A stretch of 64,000 nt of DNA from Bacteroidales bacterium (GTDB taxonomy: Bacteria > Bacteroidota > Bacteroidia > Bacteroidales > F082): the NCBI GenBank assembly GCA_017531225.1, contig JAFXLL010000010.1, positions 434,001 to 498,000 on the forward strand, given 5' to 3'. Numbering within the stretch: the first letter of the stretch is position 1; each line of letters starts with the position of its first letter. A program made the position numbers and the translations under genes. Below, one piece after another: positions 7,585-64,000 of the stretch. The notes under the pieces are model-generated. The model saw only the letters and a list, made by a program, of their open reading frames with translations, was not told where the DNA came from and did not search any database.

Positions 7585-7612
7585 CGCTGAAAAGTTTGAT
7601 TTTTTCGGGCTG

Positions 7613-7644: not shown

Positions 7645-7661
7645 GTTTTTTTCAAAAAAGG

Positions 7662-7690: not shown

Positions 7691-7713
7691 CAGCCTCGTT
7701 CATTGAAAACCAT

Positions 7714-7797: not shown

Positions 7798-7804
7798 CTG
7801 AACA

Positions 7805-7833: not shown

Positions 7834-7854
7834 GAATATCAAAACTCGAATAAC

Positions 7855-8547: not shown

Positions 8548-8552
8548 GGAGG
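8546..8552 (+). promoter_or_regulatory. Strong Shine-Dalgarno sequence before the GGGtGRT gene
   Basis: AAGGAGG lies 7 bases before the ATG at 8560 and overlaps the stop codon of the upstream gene. Canonical Shine-Dalgarno sites are rare in Bacteroidetes; I saw no comparable site before the other genes here. Confidence 0.75.
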
Positions 8553-8559
8553 ACATACC

Positions 8560-9570: not shown

Positions 9571-9604
9571 GATAAAAGATAAAAGTTAAGAGATAAAAGT
9601 TATC
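9570..9604 (+). repeat. Heptamer tandem repeat, type AGATAAA (5 units)
   Basis: Units AGATAAA, AGATAAA, AGTTAAG, AGATAAA, AGTTATC. The first base is the last base of the TAA stop of the GGGtGRT gene. It is purine-rich on the sense strand of that gene. Confidence 0.82.
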
Positions 9605-9619
9605 TTAGCCAAGACAAGA

Positions 9620-9660
9620 CAACCCAACTTGACCTGATGGTTAGGTTGGGTTGCTTGTTT
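9620..9660. terminator. Terminator hairpin between the GGGtGRT gene and the CotH gene
   Basis: CAACCCAAC (9620-9628) is exactly complementary to GTTGGGTTG (9645-9653), with CTTGTTTAT following. It lies between convergent genes and probably serves the + strand gene, or both. Confidence 0.7.
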
Positions 9661-17688: not shown

Positions 17689-17696
17689 TATTTTTG
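17689..17696 (+). promoter_or_regulatory. Promoter -7 element of the Fe-S flavoprotein gene
   Basis: TATTTTTG matches TAnnTTTG and leaves a leader of about 30 bases before the ATG at 17732. It is divergent with the pantothenate operon promoter. Confidence 0.6.
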
Positions 17697-17731
17697 TGCT
17701 TCTTTTTCACAAAGACACAAACACTAAAGCT

Positions 17732-25387: not shown

Positions 25388-25391
25388 GCCG

Positions 25392-25399
25392 CAAAAATA
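25392..25399 (-). promoter_or_regulatory. Promoter -7 element, probably leaderless, for the polyprenyl synthetase gene
   Basis: TATTTTTG on the reverse strand ends 5 bases before the ATG (25387), the same spacing as at the SDR, rlmN and HYC genes. Confidence 0.62.
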
Positions 25400-25409
25400 A
25401 GAAAATATT

Positions 25410-25441
25410 TTTGCACGCTTTTTGTTATATTGCTATCTTTG
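25410..25441 (+). promoter_or_regulatory. Sigma-ABfr promoter of the alpha-2-macroglobulin gene
   Basis: TTTG (25410-25413), 20 bases, TATCTTTG (25434-25441). The ATG at 25460 follows with a leader of about 14 bases. Confidence 0.7.
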
Positions 25442-25459
25442 TTCAATTATCATCAGACC

Positions 25460-38488: not shown

Positions 38489-38496
38489 TATTTTTG
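38489..38496 (+). promoter_or_regulatory. Promoter -7 element of the M64 peptidase gene
   Basis: TATTTTTG matches TAnnTTTG, 18 bases before the ATG at 38515, which is chosen over the in-frame start at 38494 because that would lie inside the promoter element. Confidence 0.6.
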
Positions 38497-38514
38497 CCTC
38501 ATAATCTTAAAGAA

Positions 38515-44277: not shown

Positions 44278-47200
44278 TTAATAAATCACTATCTTTTGAG
44301 TTTTCACGTTATTGCGGTCTTTCACCAAGCGCAACAGGTAAGTGCCTGCCGCAACATGATCGAATGACACGTGGTTGTGTCGGCTGTTCATGCTATAGGA
44401 GTGGAGGACGCGTCCAGTCACATCGATGAGCTCTAACTGGCCATTACCCTTGATGACCCACTGGGTACCGTCGAAGAATGCGAAGTCTTCATCGTCAGCA
44501 TCAATATTGATTGGGTTATCCAGTTCAAACACGATGTAGAAGCGCGCGGCGTAGTCGGCGACATGACCGGTGAAGCTGTAACTGTTGCCAGTGAGCATGT
44601 TGTATTCAGTACCGGTAATGTTATCGATGAGCAGCATCTTCTTGCAGGTGCCATTATAGGTATTCCAAGTCAAAGTAAAGTTACCATCTTCAGGTGTCTT
44701 GAAGAACAGCGGGACCTTCTTCGTACCGACAGGTGTGAAGAGCAAGCTGTAGTTCTTGTCGCCCATGTGGGTATAGAGTTTGAAGTCGGAGTTCTGTAGG
44801 TTATCCACCTTTTCCACACCGCCCAACTCTGGACGAGCCAACTCAACAATAGCCAAGTCGCGGTTGCCCTTTTCGTCTCTGGCTGTGATGTCAACCACTG
44901 GGTAATCTATCTTGTTAGCAACTACGCCACGAAGATAAGATCCTTCTTCCTTGGTTGTACCTGCCATTGACGGGGTAATCTCCATATCCATGGTGATGGA
45001 ATCAGCCACATGCGGTCTGTACAGCACGAAGAAGCCTTGGTGCGGGTGCAAGTACCGTGAAGGTATCTCTGGGTTCGTTGATGCCGTAGGCGTGTAAGGT
45101 GCATAGACACCCATATCGGCATCATAGATGTAGAAGTACTTCAAGGTATCATTCTCCGCTGTGGTGTTTCCAGGACGGATGTTGTGGGCGGCTACCTTAT
45201 CCAAGTCGAGGTAAGCCTGATACGGGTTACCCACCAAGTTGCTACCCTTGTTGTAGGAAGCAATCTGACCAGGTTGATCCTCAGGAGCTAACGCCGTCAC
45301 AGGGATGGAAACCTTATCTCTATTGAGTGTACCGGTGTTGGAGAGGTAGCTATTCTCAGAGATGGCCATCATGTAACCCTTAGCCGGAACGAGGTTGAGT
45401 TCGTTGTCATACGCAATCGGAGCATGCGGATAGTCGTAATGAGCATGGCTATTGCTGTTACGCTTGAAGTTGATCCAGTGGTACTGAGGCTCAAAGTAGC
45501 TGTAGAAGTCCCACTTGACTACGGTATCCGAGATGGTATCAATGCTGTTTGGCATGTAGCTGTTCAACACATCCACCACCTGACCTTCGTCAAAGGTCCA
45601 CCAATAGTTCTGCGTCGTGTCGTTGTAGTAGATGCCCAACGGAGCGTTGCTCAACGGCGATGACAACAGGTGCCAGTCGTATTCCAAGAGGGTTGACACT
45701 TCGGTCTCATGGCTGTAGCTGGTAGCATGACGGCATGAGTTGTCGAAGGTGACACCCGTCGTGGTATTGTTGAAGTCGGTGCTTCCGGCTTTCTGCATCA
45801 GCACGGCATCTTCGTTGAGGAACACATTCACCTCGTCGTCAGGCACATTTTCAACCTCGACGGCAGTGCCATAGAGGAACATGCTCGACTGGGCGTCCAG
45901 CTTGTTGGTGGTATCCAACAGGAAGTCGAAGTCCTTGCTGTAACGCAGGAAGGCAATGTCGTCAACCACAGCGATGGCGCTGTCCGTCTTGAAGGCCAAC
46001 ACCGGCAAGTCGTTGTTGATCTTTTCGGTGGTCGGACGGAACCAAGGTGCCGGATCAGTCAAACCTGCTGGGTTGGTAGCCACCCATTGGTTAAGGGTAC
46101 TCAACAAACCAGGCCATCTAAATGCATGCTTATTGACATAGACGGTGTCGGCGGAGAAATGAGCATTGTTCACTGATTCTCCAGTTTCCAAGGTCACCAA
46201 ATTGTCCTTATACATATAACCGAAGTCCTTACGATCCAACACATCGCTGTAAGTACCATGACCCTGAGGTGCTGTACCATAAGAATAGTAGTTATTGCTG
46301 TTGCTATAGCATTCCTTGATATTTCCTGCTACGGCTTCGTTCTTATAAGCGATGGAAGGCACACTGGCTTCAACAACGGAGTAGCAGTTCTCCACATGGC
46401 CTTCGGCACGGTTGATACCCACCAAACCACCTATGGTGTCGGCAGCGCCTTCGTTGTCCACGATGAAGTTGCTGTAGGAGTTGTAGAGGTTACGGGCGTT
46501 GTCGCCAACAAGACCGCCAACCACAGTAGCGTTGGAAAGCGTATGGAGCGTGTCGAGGGCGAAGCTGGAGTGGATGGTGACGGCATCCTCAGACTTACCA
46601 ACCAAGCCGCCCATCGTCTTGGTAACTTCGGCACCTTCCAAGTAACCGGCGCTCTCGCAATTGCTCAGCGCGCCACTGTTCATGTTACCCACGAGGCCGC
46701 CCAAGTTGATAGCCTTACCTCTAAAGAACTCAACATTAGCCTGCAAGTTCTTGATGGTAGCGCCATTGGTGCTGCCAAACATACCCTTGTCAGGGAAGGA
46801 GAGGGCGCTGTGAACACCGGAGACCATGTAGCCATCACCATTGAAGGTACCTCTATAGTTATTGGCAGTGTCGCCAATCGGCACCCAGATGTAACGGCTC
46901 ATGTCGACATCCTTGGTAAGAGTGAAGTTGGTGGCCGGAGCCGCGGTTTGTCCGTTGTAGCCATTGACCACAGAGATAGCCCAAGCCAACTCTTCAGGTG
47001 TGTCAATTTCACTTGCATTGTAACTTGCAGGAGCTGATGTCACCTGGTTCACCCAAGTCTTCGCGAAGTAGAGCTTACGCAGATAGTTGACGTCGCCGTT
47101 GTATTCCCTCAGCGGATACTCAATCAAACCATAATGTTGCAACTCATCATAGACGATCTGGCCTGGAGCGTAGCTACCGAAGGTTCGCAAGTTGTTTCCA

Positions 47201-50200: not shown

Positions 50201-53200
50201 TTCATGTAGTTCTTGGAGTCAGTCGGCGCTGTGGTATGCTCTGTGTCGTAACCGAAACCATCAAGATAGATATCTGAACGTCCGGTGATGGTGGTTGAAT
50301 CGCTGAACACACCGCCGATAATTTCATAAGTACTGAAGTCAGCGCCTGCCCACACATCACGTTGGATGATCAGGTTCTCGTGGTTGTTGTAGAAGTCATA
50401 GTTGTATGGGTCGGTAGCACCTGTGGTAGCGGTGTGATGTGGAGCGTTCATGATGGCGTTGAGGCCGATGAACACGTAGGTGGAGCCATAGGTCTTGCCA
50501 TGGTCGCCTGCACCAAACACGTGGTTGTCGTCATAACCGCCGCTGTAGTTCACCACACTGACCGTTTCCATGGTGTTGTTGTTGATGAAGTCAGCAGGAT
50601 GAGGCTCCAGTGCGTCATCGGCATTGAAGCTACCGCCGTAAACGCTACCCAACACAGAACCACTACGCATGTTCACCATACGTCTGCCGTAGCCGTGAAT
50701 ATGATCACGCTGGCCGTAAGCACCGCCAAACACGTTCTCATTGACCGTACCGCCGCTGACGTTGACGTACGACTCAGCGTAGTTGATACCCAACTCACCA
50801 CCGCCGTACACGCTCTTTTCAACGGTACCACCATTAAGGTTCACCGTACAGGTACCCATTACACGTCCAGAGATGGTGTCGTTGGTGTAATAAGGCTCAC
50901 CCCAGATACCTTCACCACCGCCAAACACACTACCTCTGATGATAGTAGTACCAGTAATGTTCACCTCAGTGCTATGGATCAACTGAGCGTTCTTATGGTC
51001 AGTACCCACCTGGCCGTGCTCACCACCGCCGAACACATCCTTCTTAATCTGTGCGCTGTCAATGTTAACCTTGGTGTAGGAACAGAAAGCGAACTTCTTG
51101 AAGTCGTAATCCGTAATGGTATCACAGTTGGGCAAACCTCTCGATCCACCGTAGACACAGCCGCCGAAGCTTCCATCAGTGTTTTCTCCGATGACAGCAT
51201 CCTTGTTGATGTTGACGGTGACACAAGTTGAGTCGATGGGGCAGTCATAGTTTTGGAAGATACGCGGAGGACCAACCGTGGCCAAGTTACCGCCGCCATA
51301 CACATTGCGGTGGATGATACCGCCGTTGATGTCGATATTGGCGAAGTGGGTCACCGAACCTGCTATGCTGCAGTAGTGCAGAATGGTGTCAATCTCGCTG
51401 GTGGATGGATTCAGTTCGTAGGTCTCATACTGGCCGATACCTGATCCAGCGCCAAACACGTTACCACGTGAAGTCCAGTAGATCGTATCGGGGTTCATGC
51501 TACCAACAGCACTGGCTTCAGTACCGCCGTAGTCCACGCCGATCTCACCACTGTTGACCACGGTGTTGGCATCCCAGCGGACGTGACCATCCTGGGCACC
51601 GCCATACACTGAGCCGTAGAGGTGAATGTCGTCGTTATTGCCGCCCTTGGTACCGATGGTAACATGCGTATGGTTGGTGTAGCCTAAGAAGTCCTCAGGG
51701 CAGTATTGTAAGCGTGGGGTGAGCGTGCGTGGCACGTCGGGCACAGCAATGCCTCGGCAACCACCGAACACCGAGCCGTAAGGCACGTTGTCCTTGAACA
51801 CATCCCCAGGCTTACTACCGTTGAGGTAACCTATCGTACCCTTGGTAATAGTGACGTAGGCATGACCGCTGTTACGCATGTAATCCCAGTCATCAGCATT
51901 GGCAATACACTCGCCGTAGCCAGTCTGGCTGTAGTCGCCCACGCCGCCAGCGTAGTTACCTTTACCAATAGAAGCTAAGTTACCGCCGCCGAATACACTG
52001 CGCACCACATAGCCGCCATTGATGTTGACGTAGGTATTGCCATACACCTTACCGGCGGTGATGCTGTAAATCGTAGCAAGTGAGTCTGCAGGATCTGTAT
52101 GAGGAGTGTTAATCTTCCAGATCATCGTCTCATAGGTATCCTTACCCTTACCACCGCCATACACAGCATGACCGACGAGGCCGTTGGTGAGGGTGACACG
52201 GGTATCGTTGTTGACATGGCCGTTTTCACCACCGCCGTACACAGCACCGGTGACACACTCTTTCCTGTTTGCAGCTGTTGTGTCTTTATAGTTGTCTGGA
52301 GTGGCAGCATTGGCAGCACCGAAGTCGATGTTGATCACCGTATTGTTGGTGTTAGCGCACTGAGCCATCTCGAAACGGTCGCCAGCAAGACCCTTACCGC
52401 CGCCGTAGATGTCTCCGTTGTCCGCTCTGGCATCCTTGATTTCCTTTTCGGTCAACTCATGGTTGTCAGCCAATGAATACGGGTTGCCAGCGTCGTTCCA
52501 CGGACCCATGTAGTCCTTACCGGTGATACCGATACGGCCTCCGGTGACATTGATGGTGTCAGCACCGGTATGGGTAGCGTAACTGAAGAAGTAAGGCCAG
52601 CTGATGTTGAAGGTGGTGTCGGTTACAGAACCTTCTGGGTGTTCAGGGTGCTTGGCGATACTGTCAATGGTACCCACGGAGGCCAATTCGCCGCCGCCGT
52701 ACACGCTCTTCTGGATCCAGCCACCGCTGATGTCGATCTTGGTATTGCCTTTCACACGGCCTGCCCATTCCATTGGGGTTACGTCAACGAAGGTTTCCAC
52801 AAGGTTGCCTCCAACATCTTCAATGACTCTGAGTTTACCGATGTTGGTAGTGTCACTACTACCGTAGCCGCCGCCGAACACATCGCGCCAGATGGTACCA
52901 CCTTCAACGAGGACAGTGGCAGTCTCGTCAACAGTACCAAACTCACCACCGCCATACACACTACCTTTGATGACTGCGTCGCCTCTGACGGTCAGGTTGG
53001 TCTTCTTCACCTTGGCCAAGTTAGGCCAGATGGGGTTGACATCACCGTTGAGCAAGGTGATACGTCCCATACTTCCGGTAAACACGTTACCGCCAATGAA
53101 ACGTTTGCTGAAGTCGGTATGATGGACGGCTTCGTAGTCGTTGCCGATGACACCGCCACTGATGTCGACGTTGACGATACCGTGCTCGTTGCCGTCTTGC

Positions 53201-56200
53201 ATGTGGCCATAGTGTGGGTTAGGATCGCCATTAGGAAGTGTCGGGCTGGTAAACTCAGTACCGACAGAAGCCAAACGGCCACCACCGTAGATGGAACCGA
53301 GCATCTCGCCGCCACTGATGTTGACGTTGACGTTGCCGCCCACCGTACCTGCGGTGAAAGCCTCGCCCGAGAAACCACGACCTGCGCCGAAGATGTTACC
53401 GTCCACGTAGGAGTAACCTAACGTACCGATCTTGGCGTCGCCTTTGATGTTGACCACCACATCCTTGATGACGTGGCCTTCTTCACCGCCGCCGAACACC
53501 GAACCGTAGATCCAGCCGCCGCTCACATCCACACGGACGTTCTCAACGTTGGTCCAAGTGTTGAAATTGATACGAGGATCACCCTTACCTGCGCCGAAGA
53601 GGTAGCAAGTTACCGGGTGACGGCCGATCTGTTCCAGTCTACGAGGCACACCCAAGGTACCGCCACGCATGACGACGACAGCGGAATCCGTCACATCGGT
53701 GGTCTCGCAACCGCCATAAACATTGGTGAGGATGTGACCTCCGGTGATCTCCACTTGAGTCTTACCATAAACCTTACCTGACTCAGGATTCCACACGGTG
53801 GAGTCTGCGTTAGAGGCAGTCTTGACGATGTAAGGATAGAAACCTGAACCACCGCCAAACACATTGCCAAACCAGCTCTTACCATCCGACGGGAGCTTGC
53901 CTGCTTTCACATCCACTGGATCGTAAGGATAGTAGTTGCCGTTAGTACCGTATGGCCAGTGAGGACATTCTGTCAAGGAGTCGGCTGTGGCGAACTCGTC
54001 TTCAGTGTACCTTCTCTCCACTGCCATGTCGCCTGAACCGATCTGACCACCTTGGATCTTCACCATGGTGCCATCCATCACGTGACCGTTGCCACCACCA
54101 CCGTACACAGAGCCTTTCACCCAAGCGCTGTCGCTGATGATGACTTCTGTGTTAACCACCAAAGCCATCAGGTCGATCAAAGGTTTGTAGTTGTGAACGT
54201 CATCAGGTCCTGCAGGAATAAGCGTTGAAGGAGAAGGCAGAGGTGCGACTGTGGCTTTAGGATTGATGGTGTCGTACTTGGCAGGATTGTCAACGATACC
54301 TTCACCACCGCCGTACACATGGCCGACATCGTCGTTATACTTGAGGTTGTTTGTGCCTTCGGCAAGTTCACTTCTCATCTGCATACGGTCAGCACCGATT
54401 TGACCGCCGCTCACGACGATCTTGGCATGACCACCGCCTGGTATAAATTCAATATTGGCAATATCGAGCTTACCCGTCTTCGGATTAACGATGGTATCCC
54501 AGTCGAAGTAGCCCACATTGGCCATCTCACCGCCGCCATACACACTACCGTAGATGACAGGTCTCGACACGAGAATGCTACCATCGATGGAATCCTTGAT
54601 GATTACCTCGGTGTTTCTGGTGAGGGAGAGGAGCAAAGCAGAGGCTGCTGGATGTCCCTTGAGACCTTCCATGGAGCCCTTGCCACCGCCATAAACGTCA
54701 CCCATGGAGTACTTGGTAAAGGTCTCCATGAGTTTCTCATTACCAATCTTACCACCTTTCACGATGATCTTGGTGTTACCGTGACCGTCGCCAGGAGCTT
54801 GTTCACCCTTTTCGTCGATACCGGTCAAGGCTAAACGACCACCACCGTAGATATTGCCGAAGAGTTGTCCGCCGCTCACTTCAACAAGGATGTCGCCACC
54901 CACACGACCAGCGGTATAGTTCATCTTGCTGTAGTTACGGCCGCCGCCAAAGATGTTACCATCGTAGCTGGTGGTACCCAAGGTACCCATGAAGCCACTT
55001 ACATAGCGTACGTTGGCGTTGCCCAACACGTGGCCGTCCTCAGCACCACCGAACACGCTACCCCACAAACGGTTGGTAGTAGTGTCGGCATCAGCTGGGA
55101 TATTCACCGTCACCAAAGTATTGCGGACATTGGCATAACGGTAATAAGCACCATAAGGATGTTCAGTGGTGATAGCGTCGTCTCCAATACCCTTACCGCC
55201 GCCGAACACGTAACCGTCGACGCCGCTTAAGCCGATGGGGATGTTGTAGCCAGACTCCACTTTCGGTGCAGGACCAACCTGACCGCCAGTGACCGTCACG
55301 ATGGCTGAGTCGCTCACGCTTGACAACTCACCGCCGCCATACACGCTGTAAAGCACCTTGCCACCCTTGATGTTGACTCGGGTGTCGCCAGTAACCATAG
55401 CGATGTTGTGGTCAGTATCAATGTTGGTGTCTCTACCCTTACCACCACCGAACACTCTACCGCTGTTAGCGGTATGGATGATGGTGTCGTAAACGGCCGA
55501 GCCAGATGTCTTGCCATAGGTGATGTCGCCCACCACGCCTTGGTAGATGTTTACCGTAGTATTACCAATAACGCTGGCCGTCTCACCGCCGCCATACACA
55601 TTACCCTTGACAGTGTCCACAGGAGTGCTGATACATGCAGGCAAGAGGCTCGACATGGTAGCTGCATTGTAGCCGATGTTGACCTCTGGGTTGGAGGTTG
55701 TGGTAGCGGTTTCACCGAAGCTGCCACCGAATACGTTACCCTTGACTGTACCATTGATGATGTTCACCACAGGCGAAGCAGTCACTCCTCCATTGGCAGT
55801 AAGAGCCGTTGCCTTACTACCACCATACACATTGTAAAGATCCAGAGGACAGCCAGTCAAGGTATCTATCACGTTCACCGTGACCACACCAGTGATGTTG
55901 CCGTTCATATCACTGCCACCGAAGGCATTGGTAATGGAACCACCAAAGATATTCAAGGTGACATTACCGTAGATGTTGGATGCAATGTTTTCACTACCCT
56001 TTGATCCGCCGAAGGCGTTGGTGATCGTACTACCCAAGATGTTCAGGGTGACGTTACCAGTGATGTTGGCGTTGTTGGCACCGCCATAGATGTTCTCATA
56101 TACACCATCACTACAAGCAATAGTGGTGGTGATGTCACCAATGACAGGTGCTTCGTTACTGCCGCCGAAGATGGAGTCAACTTGCATATCGCAACTTCCG

Positions 56201-59200
56201 ATATGGTCGACGATCAAGTCAGTGGCAAGGATACTACCCATCTGGTTACCGCCGCCATACACTGCTTCGATATAACCACCTTGGACTTGGGTATGGGCAG
56301 TGCCATAGATGTTTGCCGAAACATTGTGGGTGTTATCACCTTTACCACCACCGAACACACGACGGAGGCGACCGCCTTCGACGATGATGTTGGCATCAGT
56401 GTTGGCACCGCTGGTACCGATGTCAGCTGCGTTACCACCGCCATAGAGTTCTTCAATGGTATTTTCGCAGTTGTAGACATGCACCAAGGCGCTTCTTGGG
56501 TAAGTTGTCCTGACTCCTTGGTTCGGAGTATAGTTAGACTCATTGCCGCCGCCAAACACGTTATGAATTGCAAATTGTTTCGCTGGAGAAGCAACTTGGT
56601 CGTCAGCGGTATGTTTGGTGTGGTAGACGTGCACTTGGACGCTGTCCATCGGTGTGCCACCGTAGTTGTTGGCACCATACACGTTTCCGATAATGGTGAC
56701 ACCTTCATCGGGGTTGCCTACCTGAGATTGATTGCCGATGTAAAGCTTGGCCTTACCTCCGGGGTTGTCTCCATAACCTCCAATATAAGCAAATTCAGAA
56801 CCGCCATACACATCGCCGTTAATGGTGCCGCCGAGCAGGTCTACACGGACGTCGCCATAGGTACGGCCAGCCAGATAGTTAGCGGTCCATAAACCGTCTG
56901 AATGTGCAGCGGTGGAGTCGTTAACTACAGGTGTAACCACTCCGTTTACGATCATCGTAGTACCGTTGAAGGCAGGATTTTGGCTACCGAAGCCACCGCC
57001 ATACACACCACCAAAGAGATATTCTTCGCCAGGTTGATCAGAGTTGGCCATAGAACCGATGGTACCACCGTTGACCTTCACCCATGTATTTCCTGCTACT
57101 GAACCTTGTTCAGCACCACCGAATACACGGCTCTTGATGATCGGGTTGCCTTCGATGAGAACCTTGGCTGTTCTTGAACGAGCCATGGAGACCCAGTGTG
57201 GTGAGAGGGTATCCACATCGCCTTGGCTACCGCCATAAACGTTACCAGTGTAGGTGTGAATGAGCTTACCATCAGCGCCATACACGGTCCAGTAACTCGG
57301 TCCGTCATATGGATTGGAGGGGTCATCCTGAGCGTAGTCATAACGGAACTCCATATCGGTACCAATTTCAGGGGTGCCTTGGATGGTCACCTTGGAAGCA
57401 CCGGAGTTAGCATAGAACTTAGCCGTGTTATCCCAATAACCAATACTGGCCATCTCGCCGCCGCCGAACACAGAGCCGTAGATGGTGGGATCGCCGCTGA
57501 TATTAATACTGGTGTTAGCCACTCGGCCAGCTAAGACGGATTCATAGTTCTTAACGTCACCTTTGCCGGAGCCGAAGATGTCGCCTACGCTCTCGTCGCT
57601 GCCATTCAGCAACTCATAAGGATTGGCATTACCGATGGTTCCTCCAGTGACGGTGATGGTGGCGAGGCCGTGATTGATGGAGTCGTAGACGTTGCTGGTC
57701 AGGAACGAATCAGGTTCGCCGTTTTCATCCACGCCGACGAGAGCCATACGGCCACCGCCGAAGATGGTGCCTTGGATGGTGCCGCCGTCCATGGTGACGT
57801 TGGTATTGCCACCCACACGACCGCAATCTTTATAGATTCTGAACTCATTTGCAGTAGTGTCAATGTGGCCGCTACCCCAGCCGCCGCCGAACACGTTGCC
57901 GTCGAAGGTGGTGGTGGCATCGACACCGATCTCGGCGCCAGTGGTGATCCTAACATTGGTGTTGCCAAGGACGTGGCCGTTTTCGCCACCGCCATAGACA
58001 TCGCCATAGACACGACCGCCGATGATTCTGACCAAGGTACTGTCCACATTACAATAATTCTGCATGGTGTCGGTAGCAAAGCCCTTACCTGCACCGAAAA
58101 CATCACCGCCATAGACGAGGGTATCATTGTTAGTGAGGCACTTGACATCGGTATCCACACCCACCTTACCTTTATTGCTGACAATGACGGTAGGCTTGTT
58201 CTCAACCGAGGCTAAGTTGCCGCCTCCGTACACGTTACGGTGGACAAGACCGCCCTTGATTTCAACCGTAGTGGTACCTCTAACGATACCGGCCTTCTGG
58301 CTGAAGTGATAGATGGTGTCGTTCTTTTCAGGATCGCTGGCACTCGGCTGGTAGGTCTCATACTGACTGATACCCGAACCGCCGCCAAACACATTGCCTC
58401 GAGCGACCCAGTGCTTCGATTCAAGATCAGTAACACCCACTGTATTGTTGGCATTGGTAACGCTCACATAAGGCACACCGATTTCACCGCCATTCACCGT
58501 GACTTCAGTGTTCCAGCGTACATGACCGTCCTGACCTCCACCAAACACCGAGCCATAGAGGTGAGGTTCAGTGTAGGAAATGGAGTTGTTTGCACCGATG
58601 GTGACGTATGAGTTGTTGACATGACTCAGACGTATCGCAATACTGTTTTCCGTATCAGAGGTGGCGTCTACCATACCACGGCAACCGCCAAACACCGAGC
58701 CGTAAGGCACGTCGTCCTTGAACACCTTGTCAGGTTTCGCGGCATTGAGCATGCCGAGCGTACCGCCAGTAATATGAATAAAGGTGCGTCCACTATTCAA
58801 AGCGAGGGTGGTATCAGCAGTGCTGGTACAAGTCTCACCGTGTCCGATATAGTTACCCTTACCTACAGAGCCTAAGTTGCCGCCGCCGAAGACGTTGCGT
58901 ACCACATAGCCGCCCTTGACATCGATATGGGTGTCACCATACACCTTACCGGCCGTGAGGCTGTAAACCGCTTGGCTTTCTCCGTTAGGCGTGTACTTTC
59001 CCTTACCCTTTCCGGCACCGTACACGGCATGACCGACGAGGCCGTTCTCGATGGTAATGTGGGTGCTGTCGTTGACGTGACCGTTTTCACCACCACCGTA
59101 GACGGCACCAGCTATGCAAGCCAACGACCAATCATCTTTATAGGTAGCCGGTAGAGCCGTACTGTTGGCAATGTTGATGTTGATCTCAGTCTCCCTAACG

Positions 59201-62200
59201 TTGGAAAGGAGGTTCTCCGTATAAGGCTCGAAAGCCATACCCTTACTGCCACCATAGATGTCGCCATTGTCCTTTTCCGTTTCCTCAGTAGGACCGTCCT
59301 TACCGGTGATACCGATACGGCCGCCGGTAACGTTGACCGTGGTCTTACCAGTGAGGATGCGGGTGCCTGCGGGATAGATGGTGATGGAGTCATAGACCAA
59401 CTCGTAAGGCCAGCTAAGGTAGAAGGGGTGTGCATACGTGCCAGATTCTTCGTGCTTGGTAGTGGTCTTGATGGTACCTACAGAGGCCATCTCACCGCCG
59501 CCGTACACGTTACGCATCACTCCACCGCCTTCAATATTGATGGTGGTGTTACCATAGACGATACCCGCCTTGGGGTTGTATTGACCGCCCATGATGGTGT
59601 CGGTACCGTTACCAGCACCGTACACGTTACCACAATATTCGTTGATGATGGCCGAGGCATTGGTATTGTCACCGACAGCACCGCCGTAAATGTTGACGGT
59701 GGCGTTGGTGTTCACATGGCCGTTCTCGCCGGAACCGTAAACCGAACCGTTAATTTTGGCGGTACCCGAAAGTACGCCGCCGCTGCTCTTGGCGCCGATA
59801 TTCACCCGCGCTTCCCTAACGTTAGCGAAGTTGTCGAGAGCCGTGATGGCTTCACCGCGTGAGGAGCCGTATACGTTACCGCCGTATCCCTTGGCGATGC
59901 CAGCTGCGTCGCCGATGGTGCCGCCGATGATGTCGACCGTCGTGAGTGACGGGTCGTTATCCAGATAGAGCGGATTTGTCGGAGGCGGGCCGACGGTACC
60001 CAAGGAGCCACCACCGTATACGTCGCGGTGGATGAGACCGCCGTTGACGATGACATGGGTGTTGCGAGTAACTGAACCGGCCGAGCTGCAGTAGCTGTCG
60101 GGGATATTGTCGCCGTTGGAATCGTACATATCGATACCCCTACCGGCGCCGTACACGTTACCACGGTACTTCCAAGTGTCGGAAGCGATGTCGCTGCCGT
60201 CGCCTGAGTACTGTACGCCGATCTCTGCGTCGTTGACAACCACTTCGGTACTCAGACGCACATGACCGTCTTGTCCGCTACCAAACACAGAACCATAGAT
60301 ACGTGGGCTATCGCCGTTAGGCGTAGCCACTACATTATTACCGATGGTGACGTAGGCTTGGTTGACATAGCCCAAGAAATAGTCACGGTTGTAGAGGTAA
60401 CGTTTTTCTTTTCTGATGCTAGCGTGAGCCACACCTTTCGAAGAACCAAATACGTGGCCGTTCTCGATACCGTCGGTACCGATGACGCCGCCGTTGATCC
60501 TGACATGGGTACGACCGCTATTCAGCGTATTGGTGACATCGGTATTAGTACCGTTGGGGCCGTCTTCGCCATAGAGAACATAGTTGCCTTTACCCACTGA
60601 GGCCATGTTACCACCGCCGTACACATTGCGCAAAATCTTGCCGTTGTTGACGGTAACGCTCGTGTTACCTAACACCTTACCAGCAATAATGTCACGAACC
60701 ATGGTGGAATAGGGCTGATCCGTAATGGGATCCAAAAGTACATCCTCGTATTTGGCAGAACCATCACCAGCACCGAACACCGAACCTACGACAAGGCCAC
60801 CTGAGACAGTGACACTGGCGGTGTCATAAACGTGGCCACTCTCGCCGCCACCGAATACTGAGCCGATGATCACATTGGCAGTGTTATTGTCAAAGGTGTT
60901 ATTATCTGGAGTATCGAAGTTTACTGTGACATAAGCCTCCTTGACGTTGGCCAGTTTAGCCATCTTGTAACGCTCACCCACGTCACCGCGAGCTGCACCG
61001 AACACGTTGCCCGAAGCCAAAGCCACATCAGCCAAGGCTGCAGTGCCAATGTGACCACCATAGATATTGACCTCAGTCTTGCCACCCATGCTGATATCCA
61101 GTTCTACAGGCCAACTCAGCGTGTCACCTAGGTGGTGCTCTGTTGCTGCATCATAACCGACATAACCTACCGAAGACATAGCACCACCACCATACACATT
61201 ACGGCTGATGTAACCTCCACGGATGTTTACTTGGGTTTCGCCATACACGATACCGGCTATGGGGTTATAAGTGTCGCCCTTGTGGTCGCCGTCAGTGTCG
61301 AACATGTCGGTACCGCAACCACCGCCGTAAACATTACCACGGAATGGGAACTTCTTTTCTTTGTCCTCAGCGCTCATGGCAGCGTACTCGGAAGCTGTGC
61401 AACCGATGGTACCGCTGTTGACGTTGACTTTAGCTTGCATATAGACGTGGCCGTTTTCACCAGCGCCATACACGGAGCCCTTAATGGTAGGACCTGTCGT
61501 ACCAACTTCACCGATATTGACCTCAGTATAGGCTGCAAACGACAAGCTATCAACGAAAGCTCCAATGCTATCGATGCTACCACGGCCTGAGCCGAACACC
61601 ATGCCGTTTTCATCGCCATCGTAACCGATGGTGCCACCCTTGACGTTGACTGTGGCCTTGCCATGACCTAATTCGTAACCAGCGTATGGGGTGTGTCCTG
61701 GAGTAAGGTCATAAGTACCAATGGAAGCAACAGCACCACCACCATAAACATTATGATAGATGGTACCATTGTTGATGGTGACATAAGTGTCGCCGAACAC
61801 ACGGCCTGCTGTGATACTCAGACGCTTCGGCTTGCCCGTCACGGAATAGCGGTTGTTACCACCACCACCACCGTACACGTTGCTATGCCAACCACCGTGG
61901 CCTTCGATGCCGATGGTACCACCATTGACGGTGACACGGGCATCGCCCTGCACGTGACCACTGGTTGCGCCGCCGTACACGTTGCTCTTGATGTTGGCAC
62001 CTGCATTGACGGTGACATGTGACTCGCCAACATAGGATAGATAGGAGAGCTGTGTTCCGGGAGGAACCGCCGAACCTAAACCACCGCCATACACATCGCC
62101 GTTGTTGTTGCCGTCCGTACCAATCTGGCCACCATTGATGACAACCTCGGACTTACCAGTACCTGCAACATAACCAATGATAGTGTCATTATGTGAGGGT

Positions 62201-64000
62201 AAGGATACAGTGTTGAAAGTACCCACCGAAGCGATGGTGCCACCGCCTAACACATGGTTGTAAATCTTACCTCCGTTGACGGTTACCAAAGTGTTGCCAA
62301 ACACACGGCCGCCAATAGGATTGTACAATGCGACAGGGGCAGGAGGATTGGAATAAACGTCGGTACCACGACCGCCGCCGTACACTTGGCCACGCACAAC
62401 ACGACGGCCAACACCCATTTCGTCTTCCGCAATCTCGCTGTCAGCCTCCGATAGGTGGAGGACGCGGCTTGCATCATAGTACTCGCATGTTGTTTGTTCT
62501 TGTGAAAGGGCGTATTCTGTACCATGTAAAGGTATACCACCTATGACAAAGTTGTTGGGTCCTTCGGAAGTGCCGATGGCGACATCCGTATTCTCATACA
62601 CACGACCGTTCTCGCCACCACCGAACACACAGCTAACTACCTGGGCGCTGCCCTCGACGCTCACCGAAGTCTCTTTGACATAGGCCATCTTGTTGTATTG
62701 TGGATGTGCCTCACCACGGCTGGCGCCGTAGATGCTACCCTCGTTACCGCCGAGGTACTTGAAAGCCTGACTGATATACGCTGAATCCGTCAACGATGAC
62801 ACTCCTAAAACATCAGCTGCATCAGCCAATTCTTCAGCAGTGATGTCTTCGGTAAGGTCGGCTTTCTTAGGACCGATAAGCGCATTGCCGCCTACTGTAA
62901 CCGAAGCAGTACCTCCTCCGAGCCATTCATTAATGGTGCCGTCGGATTTGAAGGTGAAGTTACCCACCGAAGCCATACGACCGCCGCCGTACACATTGTG
63001 ACGCACCACGGCATTGCCATTCACGGTCACATTGGTGTTGCCATATACGCGACCCAACAATTCATGGTCACCTGCAGTGGTAGCAGTACCTTCGCCGCCG
63101 CCATACACGTCACCGGTGTTGACTTCATCGTGAAGACTGCGGTCTGTCACATAACGTTCCCTGAAGTTCAGCCTTCTACCAACGGTACCACCGCTAACAA
63201 CAACGAATGTATTGCCATCAACAGCTGCCTTATTTCCACCACCGAAGATATTGCCTTTTGCCCAACCGGTAACCATGTTCACTCTGGTATTGCCGGTCAC
63301 TTTGGCGGTATCAACATCCTTTTCGATACCCAAGCCGGCGCCGAAGATGTCGCCTGCAACCACGGCCTCGTCATGCAACATATTCACTTCAGTGTTGCCG
63401 TTCACAATAGCCAGTGAACCACCGCCATACACATTGCCGCTTACATAGGCGTGTGGGTGTTCAGGTACGGTATAAAGCGGATCATTGTTTCCATCTTTAG
63501 GAATGAATGCTGCCATGGTAGCGGATTCGTATCCGATGTTGACCCGTGGGTTGGAAACAACGGTTGCTGTGTCACCCAAGGAGCCACCGAACACATTACC
63601 CCTGATACCTGGTTCTTGTGCGATGTGAATCACGTTGACTACGGGGCTAACAGTGTCAACGGTTGTGGAAGTAATGGCCGTTTGTTTGCTGCCACCATAA
63701 AGGTTGGTAATGTCCAACTCACAATTTGTAGTCTCTTTATCTATCACGTTCACCGTGATCACACCTTCGATGTTACCATTGACATCGCTACCACCAAACA
63801 CATTGGTATGCTTACCACCATAAAGGTTAAGAGTGACATTACCGCCGTAACCTACTGGGAAAACAGGATATTGGTCATGGAGCGCTTGTGTCACTTTGCT
63901 AATGTTAGCCGGATTGGTAATGGTACCGCATGATCCGCCAAACAGGTTTTCTACTTCACCACCTTCCACGTTAAGGGTGACATTACCATAGATATTTGCA
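44278..64000 (-). CDS. Giant T9SS-secreted repeat protein (more than 6570 residues, 5' end outside window)
   Basis: One uninterrupted frame of 19.7 kb. The first in-window codons (ANIYGNVTLN) are mid-repeat, so the start lies beyond 64000. Layout from N to C: a repeat array (about 64000-50340) of roughly 100 units with the core (V/I)(Y/F)GGG, typically NVYGGG-x-ASVG or GSVFGGGENGHV, alternating with short strands such as TxVNIxGGxI; a non-repetitive segment (about 50340-47015); a GLUG-repeat segment (47015-46330); a segment holding NPxQAYLDL; and a T9SS C-terminal domain ending KTQKIVIY. The strand-turn repeat with regular Gly/Asn suggests a long parallel beta-helix or solenoid fibre. Adhesion or a surface filament is inferred. 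A small secreted protein follows in the same operon. Confidence 0.92.
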   Translation of the reverse strand, partial: ANIYGNVTLNVEGGEVENLFGGSCGTITNPANISKVTQALHDQYPVFPVGYGGNVTLNLYGGKHTNVFGGSDVNGNIEGVITVNVIDKETTNCELDITNLYGGSKQTAITSTTVDTVSPVVNVIHIAQEPGIRGNVFGGSLGDTATVVSNPRVNIGYESATMAAFIPKDGNNDPLYTVPEHPHAYVSGNVYGGGSLAIVNGNTEVNMLHDEAVVAGDIFGAGLGIEKDVDTAKVTGNTRVNMVTGWAKGNIFGGGNKAAVDGNTFVVVSGGTVGRRLNFRERYVTDRSLHDEVNTGDVYGGGEGTATTAGDHELLGRVYGNTNVTVNGNAVVRHNVYGGGRMASVGNFTFKSDGTINEWLGGGTASVTVGGNALIGPKKADLTEDITAEELADAADVLGVSSLTDSAYISQAFKYLGGNEGSIYGASRGEAHPQYNKMAYVKETSVSVEGSAQVVSCVFGGGENGRVYENTDVAIGTSEGPNNFVIGGIPLHGTEYALSQEQTTCEYYDASRVLHLSEADSEIAEDEMGVGRRVVRGQVYGGGRGTDVYSNPPAPVALYNPIGGRVFGNTLVTVNGGKIYNHVLGGGTIASVGTFNTVSLPSHNDTIIGYVAGTGKSEVVINGGQIGTDGNNNGDVYGGGLGSAVPPGTQLSYLSYVGESHVTVNAGANIKSNVYGGATSGHVQGDARVTVNGGTIGIEGHGGWHSNVYGGGGGNNRYSVTGKPKRLSITAGRVFGDTYVTINNGTIYHNVYGGGAVASIGTYDLTPGHTPYAGYELGHGKATVNVKGGTIGYDGDENGMVFGSGRGSIDSIGAFVDSLSFAAYTEVNIGEVGTTGPTIKGSVYGAGENGHVYMQAKVNVNSGTIGCTASEYAAMSAEDKEKKFPFRGNVYGGGCGTDMFDTDGDHKGDTYNPIAGIVYGETQVNIRGGYISRNVYGGGAMSSVGYVGYDAATEHHLGDTLSWPVELDISMGGKTEVNIYGGHIGTAALADVALASGNVFGAARGDVGERYKMAKLANVKEAYVTVNFDTPDNNTFDNNTANVIIGSVFGGGESGHVYDTASVTVSGGLVVGSVFGAGDGSAKYEDVLLDPITDQPYSTMVRDIIAGKVLGNTSVTVNNGKILRNVYGGGNMASVGKGNYVLYGEDGPNGTNTDVTNTLNSGRTHVRINGGVIGTDGIENGHVFGSSKGVAHASIRKEKRYLYNRDYFLGYVNQAYVTIGNNVVATPNGDSPRIYGSVFGSGQDGHVRLSTEVVVNDAEIGVQYSGDGSDIASDTWKYRGNVYGAGRGIDMYDSNGDNIPDSYCSSAGSVTRNTHVIVNGGLIHRDVYGGGSLGTVGPPPTNPLYLDNDPSLTTVDIIGGTIGDAAGIAKGYGGNVYGSSRGEAITALDNFANVREARVNIGAKSSGGVLSGTAKINGSVYGSGENGHVNTNATVNIYGGAVGDNTNASAIINEYCGNVYGAGNGTDTIMGGQYNPKAGIVYGNTTINIEGGGVMRNVYGGGEMASVGTIKTTTKHEESGTYAHPFYLSWPYELVYDSITIYPAGTRILTGKTTVNVTGGRIGITGKDGPTEETEKDNGDIYGGSKGMAFEPYTENLLSNVRETEININIANSTALPATYKDDWSLACIAGAVYGGGENGHVNDSTHITIENGLVGHAVYGAGKGKGKYTPNGESQAVYSLTAGKVYGDTHIDVKGGYVVRNVFGGGNLGSVGKGNYIGHGETCTSTADTTLALNSGRTFIHITGGTLGMLNAAKPDKVFKDDVPYGSVFGGCRGMVDATSDTENSIAIRLSHVNNSYVTIGANNSISYTEPHLYGSVFGGGQDGHVRWNTEVTVNGGEIGVPYVSVTNANNTVGVTDLESKHWVARGNVFGGGSGISQYETYQPSASDPEKNDTIYHFSQKAGIVRGTTTVEIKGGLVHRNVYGGGNLASVENKPTVIVSNKGKVGVDTDVKCLTNNDTLVYGGDVFGAGKGFATDTMQNYCNVDSTLVRIIGGRVYGDVYGGGENGHVLGNTNVRITTGAEIGVDATTTFDGNVFGGGWGSGHIDTTANEFRIYKDCGRVGGNTNVTMDGGTIQGTIFGGGRMALVGVDENGEPDSFLTSNVYDSINHGLATITVTGGTIGNANPYELLNGSDESVGDIFGSGKGDVKNYESVLAGRVANTSINISGDPTIYGSVFGGGEMASIGYWDNTAKFYANSGASKVTIQGTPEIGTDMEFRYDYAQDDPSNPYDGPSYWTVYGADGKLIHTYTGNVYGGSQGDVDTLSPHWVSMARSRTAKVLIEGNPIIKSRVFGGAEQGSVAGNTWVKVNGGTIGSMANSDQPGEEYLFGGVYGGGFGSQNPAFNGTTMIVNGVVTPVVNDSTAAHSDGLWTANYLAGRTYGDVRVDLLGGTINGDVYGGSEFAYIGGYGDNPGGKAKLYIGNQSQVGNPDEGVTIIGNVYGANNYGGTPMDSVQVHVYHTKHTADDQVASPAKQFAIHNVFGGGNESNYTPNQGVRTTYPRSALVHVYNCENTIEELYGGGNAADIGTSGANTDANIIVEGGRLRRVFGGGKGDNTHNVSANIYGTAHTQVQGGYIEAVYGGGNQMGSILATDLIVDHIGSCDMQVDSIFGGSNEAPVIGDITTTIACSDGVYENIYGGANNANITGNVTLNILGSTITNAFGGSKGSENIASNIYGNVTLNIFGGSITNAFGGSDMNGNITGVVTVNVIDTLTGCPLDLYNVYGGSKATALTANGGVTASPVVNIINGTVKGNVFGGSFGETATTTSNPEVNIGYNAATMSSLLPACISTPVDTVKGNVYGGGETASVIGNTTVNIYQGVVGDITYGKTSGSAVYDTIIHTANSGRVFGGGKGRDTNIDTDHNIAMVTGDTRVNIKGGKVLYSVYGGGELSSVSDSAIVTVTGGQVGPAPKVESGYNIPIGLSGVDGYVFGGGKGIGDDAITTEHPYGAYYRYANVRNTLVTVNIPADADTTTNRLWGSVFGGAEDGHVLGNANVRYVSGFMGTLGTTSYDGNIFGGGRNYSKMNYTAGRVGGDILVEVSGGQLFGNIYGGGRLALTGIDEKGEQAPGDGHGNTKIIVKGGKIGNEKLMETFTKYSMGDVYGGGKGSMEGLKGHPAASALLLSLTRNTEVIIKDSIDGSILVSRPVIYGSVYGGGEMANVGYFDWDTIVNPKTGKLDIANIEFIPGGGHAKIVVSGGQIGADRMQMRSELAEGTNNLKYNDDVGHVYGGGEGIVDNPAKYDTINPKATVAPLPSPSTLIPAGPDDVHNYKPLIDLMALVVNTEVIISDSAWVKGSVYGGGGNGHVMDGTMVKIQGGQIGSGDMAVERRYTEDEFATADSLTECPHWPYGTNGNYYPYDPVDVKAGKLPSDGKSWFGNVFGGGSGFYPYIVKTASNADSTVWNPESGKVYGKTQVEITGGHILTNVYGGCETTDVTDSAVVVMRGGTLGVPRRLEQIGRHPVTCYLFGAGKGDPRINFNTWTNVENVRVDVSGGWIYGSVFGGGEEGHVIKDVVVNIKGDAKIGTLGYSYVDGNIFGAGRGFSGEAFTAGTVGGNVNVNISGGEMLGSIYGGGRLASVGTEFTSPTLPNGDPNPHYGHMQDGNEHGIVNVDISGGVIGNDYEAVHHTDFSKRFIGGNVFTGSMGRITLLNGDVNPIWPNLAKVKKTNLTVRGDAVIKGSVYGGGEFGTVDETATVLVEGGTIWRDVFGGGYGSSDTTNIGKLRVIEDVGGNLVETFVDVTPMEWAGRVKGNTKIDISGGWIQKSVYGGGELASVGTIDSIAKHPEHPEGSVTDTTFNISWPYFFSYATHTGADTINVTGGRIGITGKDYMGPWNDAGNPYSLADNHELTEKEIKDARADNGDIYGGGKGLAGDRFEMAQCANTNNTVINIDFGAANAATPDNYKDTTAANRKECVTGAVYGGGENGHVNNDTRVTLTNGLVGHAVYGGGKGKDTYETMIWKINTPHTDPADSLATIYSITAGKVYGNTYVNINGGYVVRSVFGGGNLASIGKGNYAGGVGDYSQTGYGECIANADDWDYMRNSGHAYVTITKGTIGYLNGSKPGDVFKDNVPYGSVFGGCRGIAVPDVPRTLTPRLQYCPEDFLGYTNHTHVTIGTKGGNNDDIHLYGSVYGGAQDGHVRWDANTVVNSGEIGVDYGGTEASAVGSMNPDTIYWTSRGNVFGAGSGIGQYETYELNPSTSEIDTILHYCSIAGSVTHFANIDINGGIIHRNVYGGGNLATVGPPRIFQNYDCPIDSTCVTVNINKDAVIGENTDGSFGGCVYGGSRGLPNCDTITDYDFKKFAFCSYTKVNIDSAQIKKDVFGGGEHGQVGTDHKNAQLIHSTEVNITGTTIIRGSVFGGGEGIWGEPYYTNDTISGRVMGTCTVNLNGGTVEKSVYGGGELGINYAESYVNVSGGTVNENVFGGAYGQRDHIHGYGRRMVNMRSGSVLGSVYGGSFNADDALEPHPADFINNNTMETVSVVNYSGGYDDNHVFGAGDHGKTYGSTYVFIGLNAIMNAPHHTATTGATDPYNYDFYNNHENLIIQRDVWAGADFSTYEIIGGVFSDSTTITGRSDIYLDGFGYDTEHTTAPTDSKNYMNLTSSSLFGCGTMNNGGKNGKQIVVRNYGSDIAHTPTEDDPEPYTGATRILQSIQYADSLILESAHIRFEGRGIVSVSGITEKYSVYNIFNDLRVVNGSSLFVDKPIDNIGNPKHGQVGALRSNFSENLCNGQYPDVPRYQVVQYGDLIPVASTQVANKENKIRINKGGYVTVSYTTKNTYDTSTEYGELEGFFHLMTDGVYNAFAYARPKQSEDEGNIISPTYAQYDHQEDGGFVCYRNTLNTYNVNGGSAAFGHTGPFIQMPYENHTPEQRGGDPFFRVWRFRDQGGQSMLDLVLHAIAVPDQLNGFSYYVGTVKLPPKAGSGAYYQIKNKENSGIADINYGTEIFTVNAGMQDTIGATPKWMNYNAGFVYDLAANDHALASQQTFMTGYPNNVFGLTAIPAGGLAGVGNKQLLLCNDANAGLLANHWNTNDGSDVPQIDFLLTHSNNVNSNHSWDPISITLQQVVGGTVTDEVTLNIEIVTSTLITQDNDVKTYAMMTHAPGSGNKHDIYKTKVLLPNYTLAGTAGKSTWTLKKVEWFPNDTTGQHLEGHTAFNANTLVSGEPYPNHTPTSDFVGMTFYRSRNVDNVNGWIESVDNVDTIDIGLYKNSDVDITLGSTKAVDPISFDFDLHYDSDQNVGIDGNGEMGTVKLTMVFDNYSNTSKPDTTHFYIHVLRRGKGKGFYIDGVNGNVMYSGKYPDAAQPSLAGILYFAEDYEPVDSIYIVNKVTANTPSGTLDWGTPYTQLKIFRYPGGHLAYNTVAQSLTNPDPYFTTYTTDDFYKENPAYKGTLVDVETNMNISSAYIDGAYQLKEMKGYPGTSGAVGSVVEVAPHVISNAPMFNVEPGATLTVDGKYHQTTLRNNFNRNGHGGAFNIETEGTVKISQHAYIEYNYVRDSMYGDSLGVHNGGAAYIAGNGTMVVSDDVMVNTNKHVRVNNSKAVVVDTIPENVYLRDYLTMIKLGSTEGTYVALADTARVGVTKTAWEDQDYMPVVLTENISYGNNLRTFGSYAPGQIVYDELQHYGLIEYPLREYNGDVNYLRKLYFAKTWVNQVTSAPASYNASEIDTPEELAWAISVVNGYNGQTAAPATNFTLTKDVDMSRYIWVPIGDTANNYRGTFNGDGYMVSGVHSALSFPDKGMFGSTNGATIKNLQANVEFFRGKAINLGGLVGNMNSGALSNCESAGYLEGAEVTKTMGGLVGKSEDAVTIHSSFALDTLHTLSNATVVGGLVGDNARNLYNSYSNFIVDNEGAADTIGGLVGINRAEGHVENCYSVVEASVPSIAYKNEAVAGNIKECYSNSNNYYSYGTAPQGHGTYSDVLDRKDFGYMYKDNLVTLETGESVNNAHFSADTVYVNKHAFRWPGLLSTLNQWVATNPAGLTDPAPWFRPTTEKINNDLPVLAFKTDSAIAVVDDIAFLRYSKDFDFLLDTTNKLDAQSSMFLYGTAVEVENVPDDEVNVFLNEDAVLMQKAGSTDFNNTTTGVTFDNSCRHATSYSHETEVSTLLEYDWHLLSSPLSNAPLGIYYNDTTQNYWWTFDEGQVVDVLNSYMPNSIDTISDTVVKWDFYSYFEPQYHWINFKRNSNSHAHYDYPHAPIAYDNELNLVPAKGYMMAISENSYLSNTGTLNRDKVSIPVTALAPEDQPGQIASYNKGSNLVGNPYQAYLDLDKVAAHNIRPGNTTAENDTLKYFYIYDADMGVYAPYTPTASTNPEIPSRYLHPHQGFFVLYRPHVADSITMDMEITPSMAGTTKEEGSYLRGVVANKIDYPVVDITARDEKGNRDLAIVELARPELGGVEKVDNLQNSDFKLYTHMGDKNYSLLFTPVGTKKVPLFFKTPEDGNFTLTWNTYNGTCKKMLLIDNITGTEYNMLTGNSYSFTGHVADYAARFYIVFELDNPINIDADDEDFAFFDGTQWVIKGNGQLELIDVTGRVLHSYSMNSRHNHVSFDHVAAGTYLLRLVKDRNNVKTQKIVIY
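44281..44520 (-). other. T9SS C-terminal sorting domain of the giant protein
   Basis: The last 80 residues carry the signal: GQLELIDVTGRVLHSY, HVAAGTYLLRLVKD-like text (HVSFDHVAAGTYLLRL) and the end KTQKIVIY. The GRVLH and AAGTYLLRL pattern with a basic/aromatic end is typical of type A T9SS domains. Confidence 0.85.
46330..47015 (-). other. GLUG-repeat segment of the giant protein
   Basis: It begins TPEELAWAISVVNG and VDMSRYIWVPIGD, then four GLUG motifs: GGLVGNMNSG, GGLVGKSED, GGLVGDNARN and GGLVGINRAE. GLUG motifs occur in bacterial surface and IgA-peptidase-related adhesins. Confidence 0.85.
51270..52705 (-). repeat. Super-repeat class 1, copy 3
   Basis: It starts at VYGGGELASVGTI, runs through NISWPYFF, GGRIGITGKD, NGDIYGGGKG, GAVYGGGENGHVNND, GLVGHAVYGGGKGK, FGGGNLASIGKGNY, VPYGSVFGGCRG, YGGAQDGHVRWD, NVFGAGSGIGQYETY and ends at GGGNLATVGPP. 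It aligns in the same order with the copies at 58200-59515 and 59940-61200. Confidence 0.8.
55640..55975 (-). repeat. Duplicated N-terminal-type block, second copy
   Basis: GNVTLNIFGGSITNAFGGSD, GVVTVNVID, NVYGGSKATAL, SPVVNI, GNVFGGSFGETATT, NPEVNIGYNAATM. It matches the block at 63490-63845 (about 7.9 kb away), which reads NVFGGSD, GVITVNVID, NLYGGSKQTAI, SPVVNV, GNVFGGSLGDTATV, NPRVNIGYESATM. Confidence 0.82.
58200..59515 (-). repeat. Super-repeat class 1, copy 2
   Basis: Same order of words: GGGEMASVGTI, YLSWPYEL, GGRIGITGKD, NGDIYGGSKG, GAVYGGGENGHVNDS, GLVGHAVYGAGKGK, FGGGNLGSVGKGNY, VPYGSVFGGCRG, FGGGQDGHVRWN, NVFGGGSGISQYETY, GGGNLASV. It is closest to copy 3. Confidence 0.8.
59940..61200 (-). 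repeat. Super-repeat class 1, copy 1 (more diverged)
   Basis: Order of words: GGGAMSSVGYV, TLSWPVEL, NIYGGHIG, GNVFGAARGD, GSVFGGGESGHVYD, GSVFGAGDGS, GNTSVTVNNG, GGGNMASVGKGNY, HVFGSSKGVA, FGSGQDGHVRLS, NVYGAGRGIDMYDSNGD, GGGSLGTVGPP. It immediately precedes copy 2 in the protein. Confidence 0.75.
63490..63845 (-). repeat. Duplicated N-terminal-type block, first copy
   Basis: About 118 residues matching 55640-55975 almost word for word over their length. Since the first block here lies at the window edge, further copies may exist beyond 64000. Confidence 0.82.

Follow-up and report, generated by a model that had tools for sequence, protein, structure and literature searches.

A giant, sorting-tailed protein built from a 26-residue YGGG repeat and predicted to form a beta-helical surface rod in Bacteroidales

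What does a single gene of 28.7 kb, composed largely of one short repeat, do for the bacterium that carries it? The question is raised by the minus strand of the window, the 64,000-nucleotide stretch analysed here (C7:434001-498000), which belongs to a Bacteroidales genome of 2.58 Mb in 14 contigs with a completeness of 98.4%. The 3' part of the giant gene occupies positions 44278..64000 (minus strand), and the remainder lies outside the window, reaching ~C7:506981, 8,981 bases past position 64000. Our reading is that the product is a length-variable beta-helix fibre, probably adhesive, displayed on the cell surface by the type IX secretion system (T9SS). The fold is predicted and the function is deduced indirectly, and we place the probability of this reading at roughly 0.55.

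The stop codon of the giant gene lies at 44278-44280 (minus strand), and the reading frame is unbroken up to the window edge. The full open frame (C7:478278-507011) comprises 9,577 codons, with no N letters among the 38,999 bases read across it and its surroundings. A preliminary description of the window had reported a single minus-strand frame of at least 19.7 kb, which is borne out by a gene that extends well beyond the window edge. Counted from the ATG ahead of a signal-like sequence (by eye), the protein spans 9,567 residues with a mass of ~1 MDa (1,052 kDa taking 110 Da per residue), begins MKLKTQKVKWKGLLLATALLLIGSGVVQAQ, and has its last 6,573 residues encoded inside the window.

Inspection of the translation reveals a repeat organised in tiers. 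Strict (V/I)(Y/F)GGG cores number 88 in the whole protein and 52 in the window part, and broad-pattern cores number 157-158 (two pattern variants) and 96, respectively. The preliminary count of about 100 cores in the window is therefore sustained under the broad pattern and fails under the strict one. When the window part was shuffled 1,000 times, the strict pattern occurred 0.28 times on average (maximum 3) and the broad pattern 2.2 times (maximum 8). A profile built from units spaced by exactly 26 residues converges on GnVYGGGnaghVtGnttVnInGGtIG and matches 155 stretches of the giant protein between residues 35 and 7505, covering 5,115 residues at a permissive domain threshold of E <=10; an example of the basic unit is VYGGGENGHVNNDTRVTLTNGLVGHA (52165..52242, minus strand). 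At a higher tier, blocks recur every ~570 residues, and three superblocks extend over residues ~36-3180, 3183-5790 and 5794-7490, with ~33-64% identity in 250-residue comparisons. Superblock B (residues ~3183-5790) corresponds to 55612..63435 and superblock C (residues ~5794-7490) to 50512..55602, both on the minus strand.

The family libraries searched hold no counterpart of this repeat. The Pfam scan of the giant protein covered the window part, and residues 1-2994 were scanned with NCBIfam only. Two modelled YGGG slices of 551 and 411 aa matched no Pfam family at E <=10 and had no match in PHROGs or PADLOC, a search of PDB sequences with repeat profile A2 returned 0 matches at E <=1, and NCBIfam supplied no repeat model for the window part (T9SS tail only) or for the first 3,332 residues. 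GLUG (PF07581) and M26_N (PF05342) occur in proteins of the cluster described below, yet neither matches the YGGG slices at E <=10. Searches of an open-access literature collection, a scope beyond which lie preprints and most subscription papers, gave no paper with the repeat letters and no description of the family. The earlier statement that no described family carries the repeat consequently stands for the libraries searched. Because the slices lack a library match, while giant adhesins and beta-helix adhesins as a class are already known, we regard the YGGG unit as a new repeat family in a new combination of features. Giant T9SS-secreted proteins are likewise already known. The same holds for consecutive genes encoding giant secreted adhesins, as described in PMC12863079.

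To learn how the repeat may fold, AlphaFold predictions were made for the two slices, one of 551 aa (60250..61902, minus strand; pLDDT 86.6, pTM 0.92) and one of 411 aa (55582..56814, minus strand; pLDDT 89.6, pTM 0.91). Both models are all-beta solenoids with right-handed parallel beta-helices among their best structural matches. Model 1 matches right-handed helices at low rmsd and left-handed ones only at 10.7-14.4 A, where the handedness of the named folds is as we take it to be. The YGGG region is thus predicted to fold as a right-handed parallel beta-helix. The two confident models, which give a solenoid and not disorder, together with their structural matches agree with the parallel beta-helix first proposed for this protein; of the accompanying proposal of a fibre tens to hundreds of nm long, a length of tens of nm would also be supported, at ~74 nm, if each of the 155 units formed one 0.48-nm coil. 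Invariant columns in both slice alignments are mostly Gly, with few charged residues (e.g., E149 and E446 in A2). Cysteines at positions 116, 208, 234 and 322 of the 411-aa slice (55582-56814) are invariant or nearly so in 38 rows, and these could possibly form disulphides along the rod.

Past the last YGGG core, a region of ~2,000 aa (44461..50466, minus strand) separates the repeats from the tail. This region includes a GLUG motif segment (PF07581; 46258..46998, minus strand) that scores 27.5 bits against a cut-off of 20.5. The match comprises three stretches when 46258-46998 is scanned alone, and is invisible at E <=1 when the long window part is scanned whole. At its C-terminus the protein bears a T9SS type A sorting domain (TIGR04183; 44284..44454, minus strand) at 29.1 bits against a cut-off of 23, with the Pfam tail model under its cut-off of 27 (20.2 and 26 in two scans). 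Both the GLUG segment and the T9SS C-terminal domain had been named in the preliminary description, and these scores confirm them. Type A was the only sorting model matched in NCBIfam at E <=1, and the type B domain found in SprB was not among the matches. The source genome encodes SprA (TIGR04189, two adjoining matches within one 2,470-aa frame) and holds 96 T9SS tail-model matches, 84 of them over the cut-off. A giant secreted rod with diversifying blocks would also suit a contact-dependent toxin stalk of the CdiA type, in which the far end varies and is toxic, but the C-terminal end here is a sorting tail conserved among relatives. The window part contains no Pfam toxin family, residues 1-2994 gave no match in NCBIfam, and no defence model was found in the three parts scanned; a toxin stalk is therefore very improbable.

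Upstream of the giant gene lie four related co-directional genes, all on the minus strand. They encode proteins of 2,685 aa (C7:507027-515084, 59 cores), 3,220 aa (C7:515101-524763, 54 cores), 2,228 aa (C7:524771-531457, 53 cores) and 1,137 aa (C7:531474-534887, 3 cores; counted from an ATG, the TTG start of the listed frame being 18 codons earlier), with intervening gaps of 7-45 bases, a range set by the start chosen for the giant gene. A further gene of 1,148 aa (C7:535607-539053, 4 cores) is 44% identical to the 1,137-aa member. The giant gene and the four genes preceding it form a putative operon of ~57 kb, in which the giant gene would be the terminal member of a co-transcribed, operon-like cluster of giant secreted proteins. 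All cluster proteins start with signal-like sequences (by eye), and the 1,137- and 1,148-aa proteins contain just a few repeat units each. The C-terminus of the 3,220-aa protein consists of five InlB-type repeats (PF18998), and the 1,137-aa member carries an M26 N-terminal match (PF05342) that the 1,148-aa protein misses by 0.1 bit. The last 150 codons of all five upstream paralogues gave no TIGR04183 match at E <=1, and the 2,685-aa query found nothing outside the cluster across the source genome.

Three other accounts of the cluster were considered and rejected. A single 12,279-aa frame spanning the 2,685-aa and giant genes is precluded by a TAA between the two. Nor is there support for the two being a single gene in relatives: when the first 500 residues of the last gene were taken from each of nine relatives, their best match was always the 9,567-aa protein, at an inner position in eight cases. 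A plasmid or phage origin was rejected after the 2,228-aa paralogue gave no match at 1e-5 among 72,556 plasmid records and 50,697 phage records.

Relatives of the giant protein turn up often in two genera and seldom in broader samples. In the source genus, 24 of 100 genomes, including the source itself, match a window slice (1e-8); an earlier search of 61 genomes with the 2,228-aa paralogue had found 6, again including the source. The genus of G496 yields matches to alignment A2 (1e-10) in 69 of 299 genomes, with open frames up to 8,346 aa, and the genus of G209 in 1 of 15. Order-wide, 3 of 393 sampled genomes match A2 (the source included), and a phylum-wide sample of 395 searched with alignment A3 returned the source genome only. 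This distribution bears on whether the rods serve a non-adhesive purpose, as a coat or spacer: arranged as a brush, sheath or lattice, they would protect the cell against phage, protozoa or host factors, or would just hold out other domains. Patchy presence, at the frequencies just given for the two genera, would be unusual for an essential coat, and no S-layer family appeared in the Pfam scans made. We regard a coat or spacer as possible, although unlikely.

A named genome collection provides a view of habitat. Relatives are encoded by 278 of 294 pattern stretches, and 72 loci were drawn from the best 80 of the 278, leaving 198 weaker stretches outside. The 72 loci are not independent, as L088 and L089 share both their isolate of origin and their match, and certain loci are contigs already counted under genomes with G handles. 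In 58 loci the longest family frame reaches 4,000 aa or more, with many ending at the boundary of the fetched stretch. Among the locus titles, taken as printed and some incomplete, 29 bear RUG labels, which presumably denote rumen, 20 name rumen, reticulum, omasum or abomasum, and 5 name deer or sheep; the other 18 (13 SRR bins, 4 UBA and 1 RUI) are without host. No host other than ruminants is named in these 72 titles. Restriction of the family to ruminants is a lead and not a result, and may be shaped by the collection's own ruminant share.

We also compared the architecture of relatives. Of twelve places compared, ten (including the source) are clusters in which the last gene can be followed to its 3' end and is the largest; the other two are a lone 2,953-aa gene in G003 and a cut locus in G024. 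TIGR04183 exceeds its cut-off in nine of ten tails (nine other clusters and G003), with G094 at 21.3 against 23. Upstream giant genes mostly end in a GNVYGGGNEGxVxGxxKVxV-like unit or in InlB-type repeats (by eye). The 72 loci contain 90 family frames, of which 74 have a closed 3' end; among those 74, 53 carry (Y/F)GGG within the last 60 residues. No TIGR04183 match at E <=1 came from the tails of L062, L090 and L119 or from that of the 8,245-aa gene in G1187, and L056, on the same contig as G109, terminates in a type A tail. Of 42 genomes searched for SprA (that of the source and those behind 41 of the loci), 36 have it, so the T9SS is usually present. No conserved downstream partner emerged among 164 open reading frames (ORFs) from 70 loci (at most four per locus, each 120 aa or longer, on the same strand and past the last family frame); the largest shared cluster consisted of further YGGG proteins (18 loci), and the next reached 4 loci. 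Two neighbours deserve mention. Beside the 8,245-aa YGGG gene of G1187 stands another giant (L153:10830-20000, minus strand) of at least 3,057 aa and 13 cores, with no Pfam match and a C-terminus that is tail-like by eye and recognised by no sorting model. Upstream of the cluster in L024, a 953-aa protein (7466-10327, minus strand) has weak BNR/sortilin-like matches and a T9SS tail.

Could a frame of this size be an assembly artefact or a decayed gene? The genome is a draft, but the frame is one continuous run of codons, comparable giant frames occur in many other genomes, and in G117 a giant cluster stands in synteny, between the same neighbours. Assembly collapse appears unlikely because the superblocks are only ~33-64% identical in protein, because another genome has the 8,245-aa family frame inside a 3.56-Mb contig, and because the 551-residue slice differs from its nearest relative with a dN of 0.142 and a dS of 0.74 over 542 codons. 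This low dN/dS also indicates that the repeat is kept by selection. Taken together, an artefact or decayed gene is extremely unlikely.

Comparison with G117 further informs how the protein changes. The last genes of the cluster occur in the same order in both genomes and have the same genes beside them; six flanking genes from thymidine kinase to a TonB receptor are 91-97% identical, and a flanking 314-aa ORF with no Pfam match is 73-95% identical in three pieces. The neighbours conserved in G117 were not seen in the stretches examined from other fetched relatives. The G117 giant protein has 6,619 aa, ~3,000 residues fewer than that of the source, and the two are colinear over residues 1-200 and most of 3201-9567 at 42-85%. 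Residues ~201-3180 and ~4450-5000 have only paralogous, out-of-order partners in G117. Because of these non-colinear stretches and the shorter G117 protein, we conclude that blocks were gained or lost.

A mechanism consistent with these observations can be proposed. The 26-aa units, present in long stretches of four of the five genes, would stack at about one coil each into a right-handed parallel beta-helix. The tailed protein would be exported by Sec and then by the T9SS, whose cargo undergoes tail removal followed by attachment at the C-terminal end; it would thereby be fixed to the outer surface by that end, with the N-terminal end pointing outward on a rod of ~70 nm. Such rods would most likely serve attachment in the rumen to a host surface, a feed particle, a protozoon or other bacteria, and gain or loss of blocks would tune rod length and surface. 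We infer this attachment function from the company of the fold, the size, the surface-like divergence and the habitat.

Several observations weigh against this proposal. Foldseek returned no match at E 0.001 or better for the models, and structural matches of equal Z include inulin fructotransferase, polygalacturonases, PL6 lyases and phage tailspikes, such that function is not deducible from a fold in common. The flanking 314-aa ORF diverges about as fast as the giant protein. Six of the 42 genomes lack a SprA match, for which genome incompleteness is a possible cause. The source genome has no GH5 or GH9 matches, which makes it less likely that the bacterium attaches in order to digest cellulose itself. 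Finally, a recognised T9SS tail is not general to the family: because the upstream paralogues and four other relatives, tested outside the tailed clusters, end without one, T9SS display cannot be the whole story. In another reading the beta-helix would be the scaffold of an enzyme, whether carbohydrate-active or not. This we consider improbable, as neither slice has a Pfam family, the scarcity of charged invariant columns argues against it, and ~155 units would be needless for one active site.

The tail-less paralogues invite a more speculative extension of the attachment-fibre reading, which we offer as doubtful. Here the cluster would build one appendage, in which the tail-less giants are exported with the T9SS-anchored terminal protein and stacked end to end on it, giving a modular surface fibre well beyond 100 nm that would consist throughout of stacked beta-helix. 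If true, this would constitute a new class of bacterial filament spread among rumen Bacteroidales and a novel route by which proteins lacking a tail use the T9SS. If the surface-rod reading alone is right, roughly one in four of the genomes sampled from two Bacteroidales genera gives over long loci, 57 kb in this case, to such rods. Most giant proteins of uncultured bacteria still lack an explanation, and this rod family is absent from the libraries searched; how bacteria attach in the rumen matters for the digestion of fibre and the colonisation of the host. The family raises the puzzle of how partners with no recognised sorting tail are exported, and it offers testable 411- and 551-aa slices with confident models and a clear secretion hypothesis.

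The window also contains genes of other kinds. On the plus strand are a 1,101-aa protein joining FAD-dependent oxidoreductase, disulphide oxidoreductase and Fe-S domains (17696-21001), a 753-aa ORF with no Pfam match at 0.001 (22413-24674), a 2,078-aa bacterial alpha-2-macroglobulin (25073-31309; PF17973, PF01835, PF00207) and an M64 (IgA) peptidase with its N-terminal domain (38494-39786), a neighbour conserved in G117 at 92.5%. The minus strand encodes a 722-aa protein with sulfatase-modifying-factor-like and fibronectin III domains (22-2190) and a 669-aa CotH kinase protein with a lamin-tail domain and a T9SS tail (9659-11668).

How does the giant protein compare with known systems? Chlamydial Pmp proteins carry many GGA(I/L/V) and FxxN motifs, whereas its 9,567 residues contain 2 GGA[ILV] and 16 FxxN. 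SprB, a giant T9SS-secreted gliding adhesin of Bacteroidota, is likewise very large T9SS cargo linked to surface contact, but has a type B tail in place of the type A tail seen here. The SRRP adhesins (5nxk) and Antigen 43 (4kh3, 7koh, 7ko9) are beta-helix surface proteins among the best structural matches. Their secretion routes differ from the T9SS, the rod here is far longer, and the serine-rich repeats of SRRP are missing from a protein with 6.4% Ser overall. The top structural match of model 1 is 3p4g, which we take to be the beta-solenoid region of MpAFP. RTX adhesins of the MpAFP and LapA type carry the nonapeptide GGxGxDxUx, for which the giant protein gives only 6 pattern matches. According to PMC4083281, MpAFP of Marinomonas primoryensis is a 1.5-MDa ice adhesin that owes its length to ~120 Ig-like repeats, has a solenoid of calcium-binding RTX repeats and is probably secreted by a type I route; the giant protein is of the same size class. 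PMC13104272 describes giant proteins of Omnitrophota and Oscillospiraceae that are distinct from the YGGG family, and PMC5831590 describes T9SS cellulases in a rumen Bacteroidetes. A parallel in gene arrangement is Giant1-5 of Apilactobacillus kunkeei, which PMC12863079 presents as suspected adhesins encoded by five consecutive genes; these proteins are extracellular, measure 3,000-8,000 aa and have signal peptides and, in four, beta-solenoid domains. The present cluster likewise consists of consecutive genes for giant secreted proteins, but here the long part itself is predicted to be a beta-helix, and the last gene ends in a T9SS tail.
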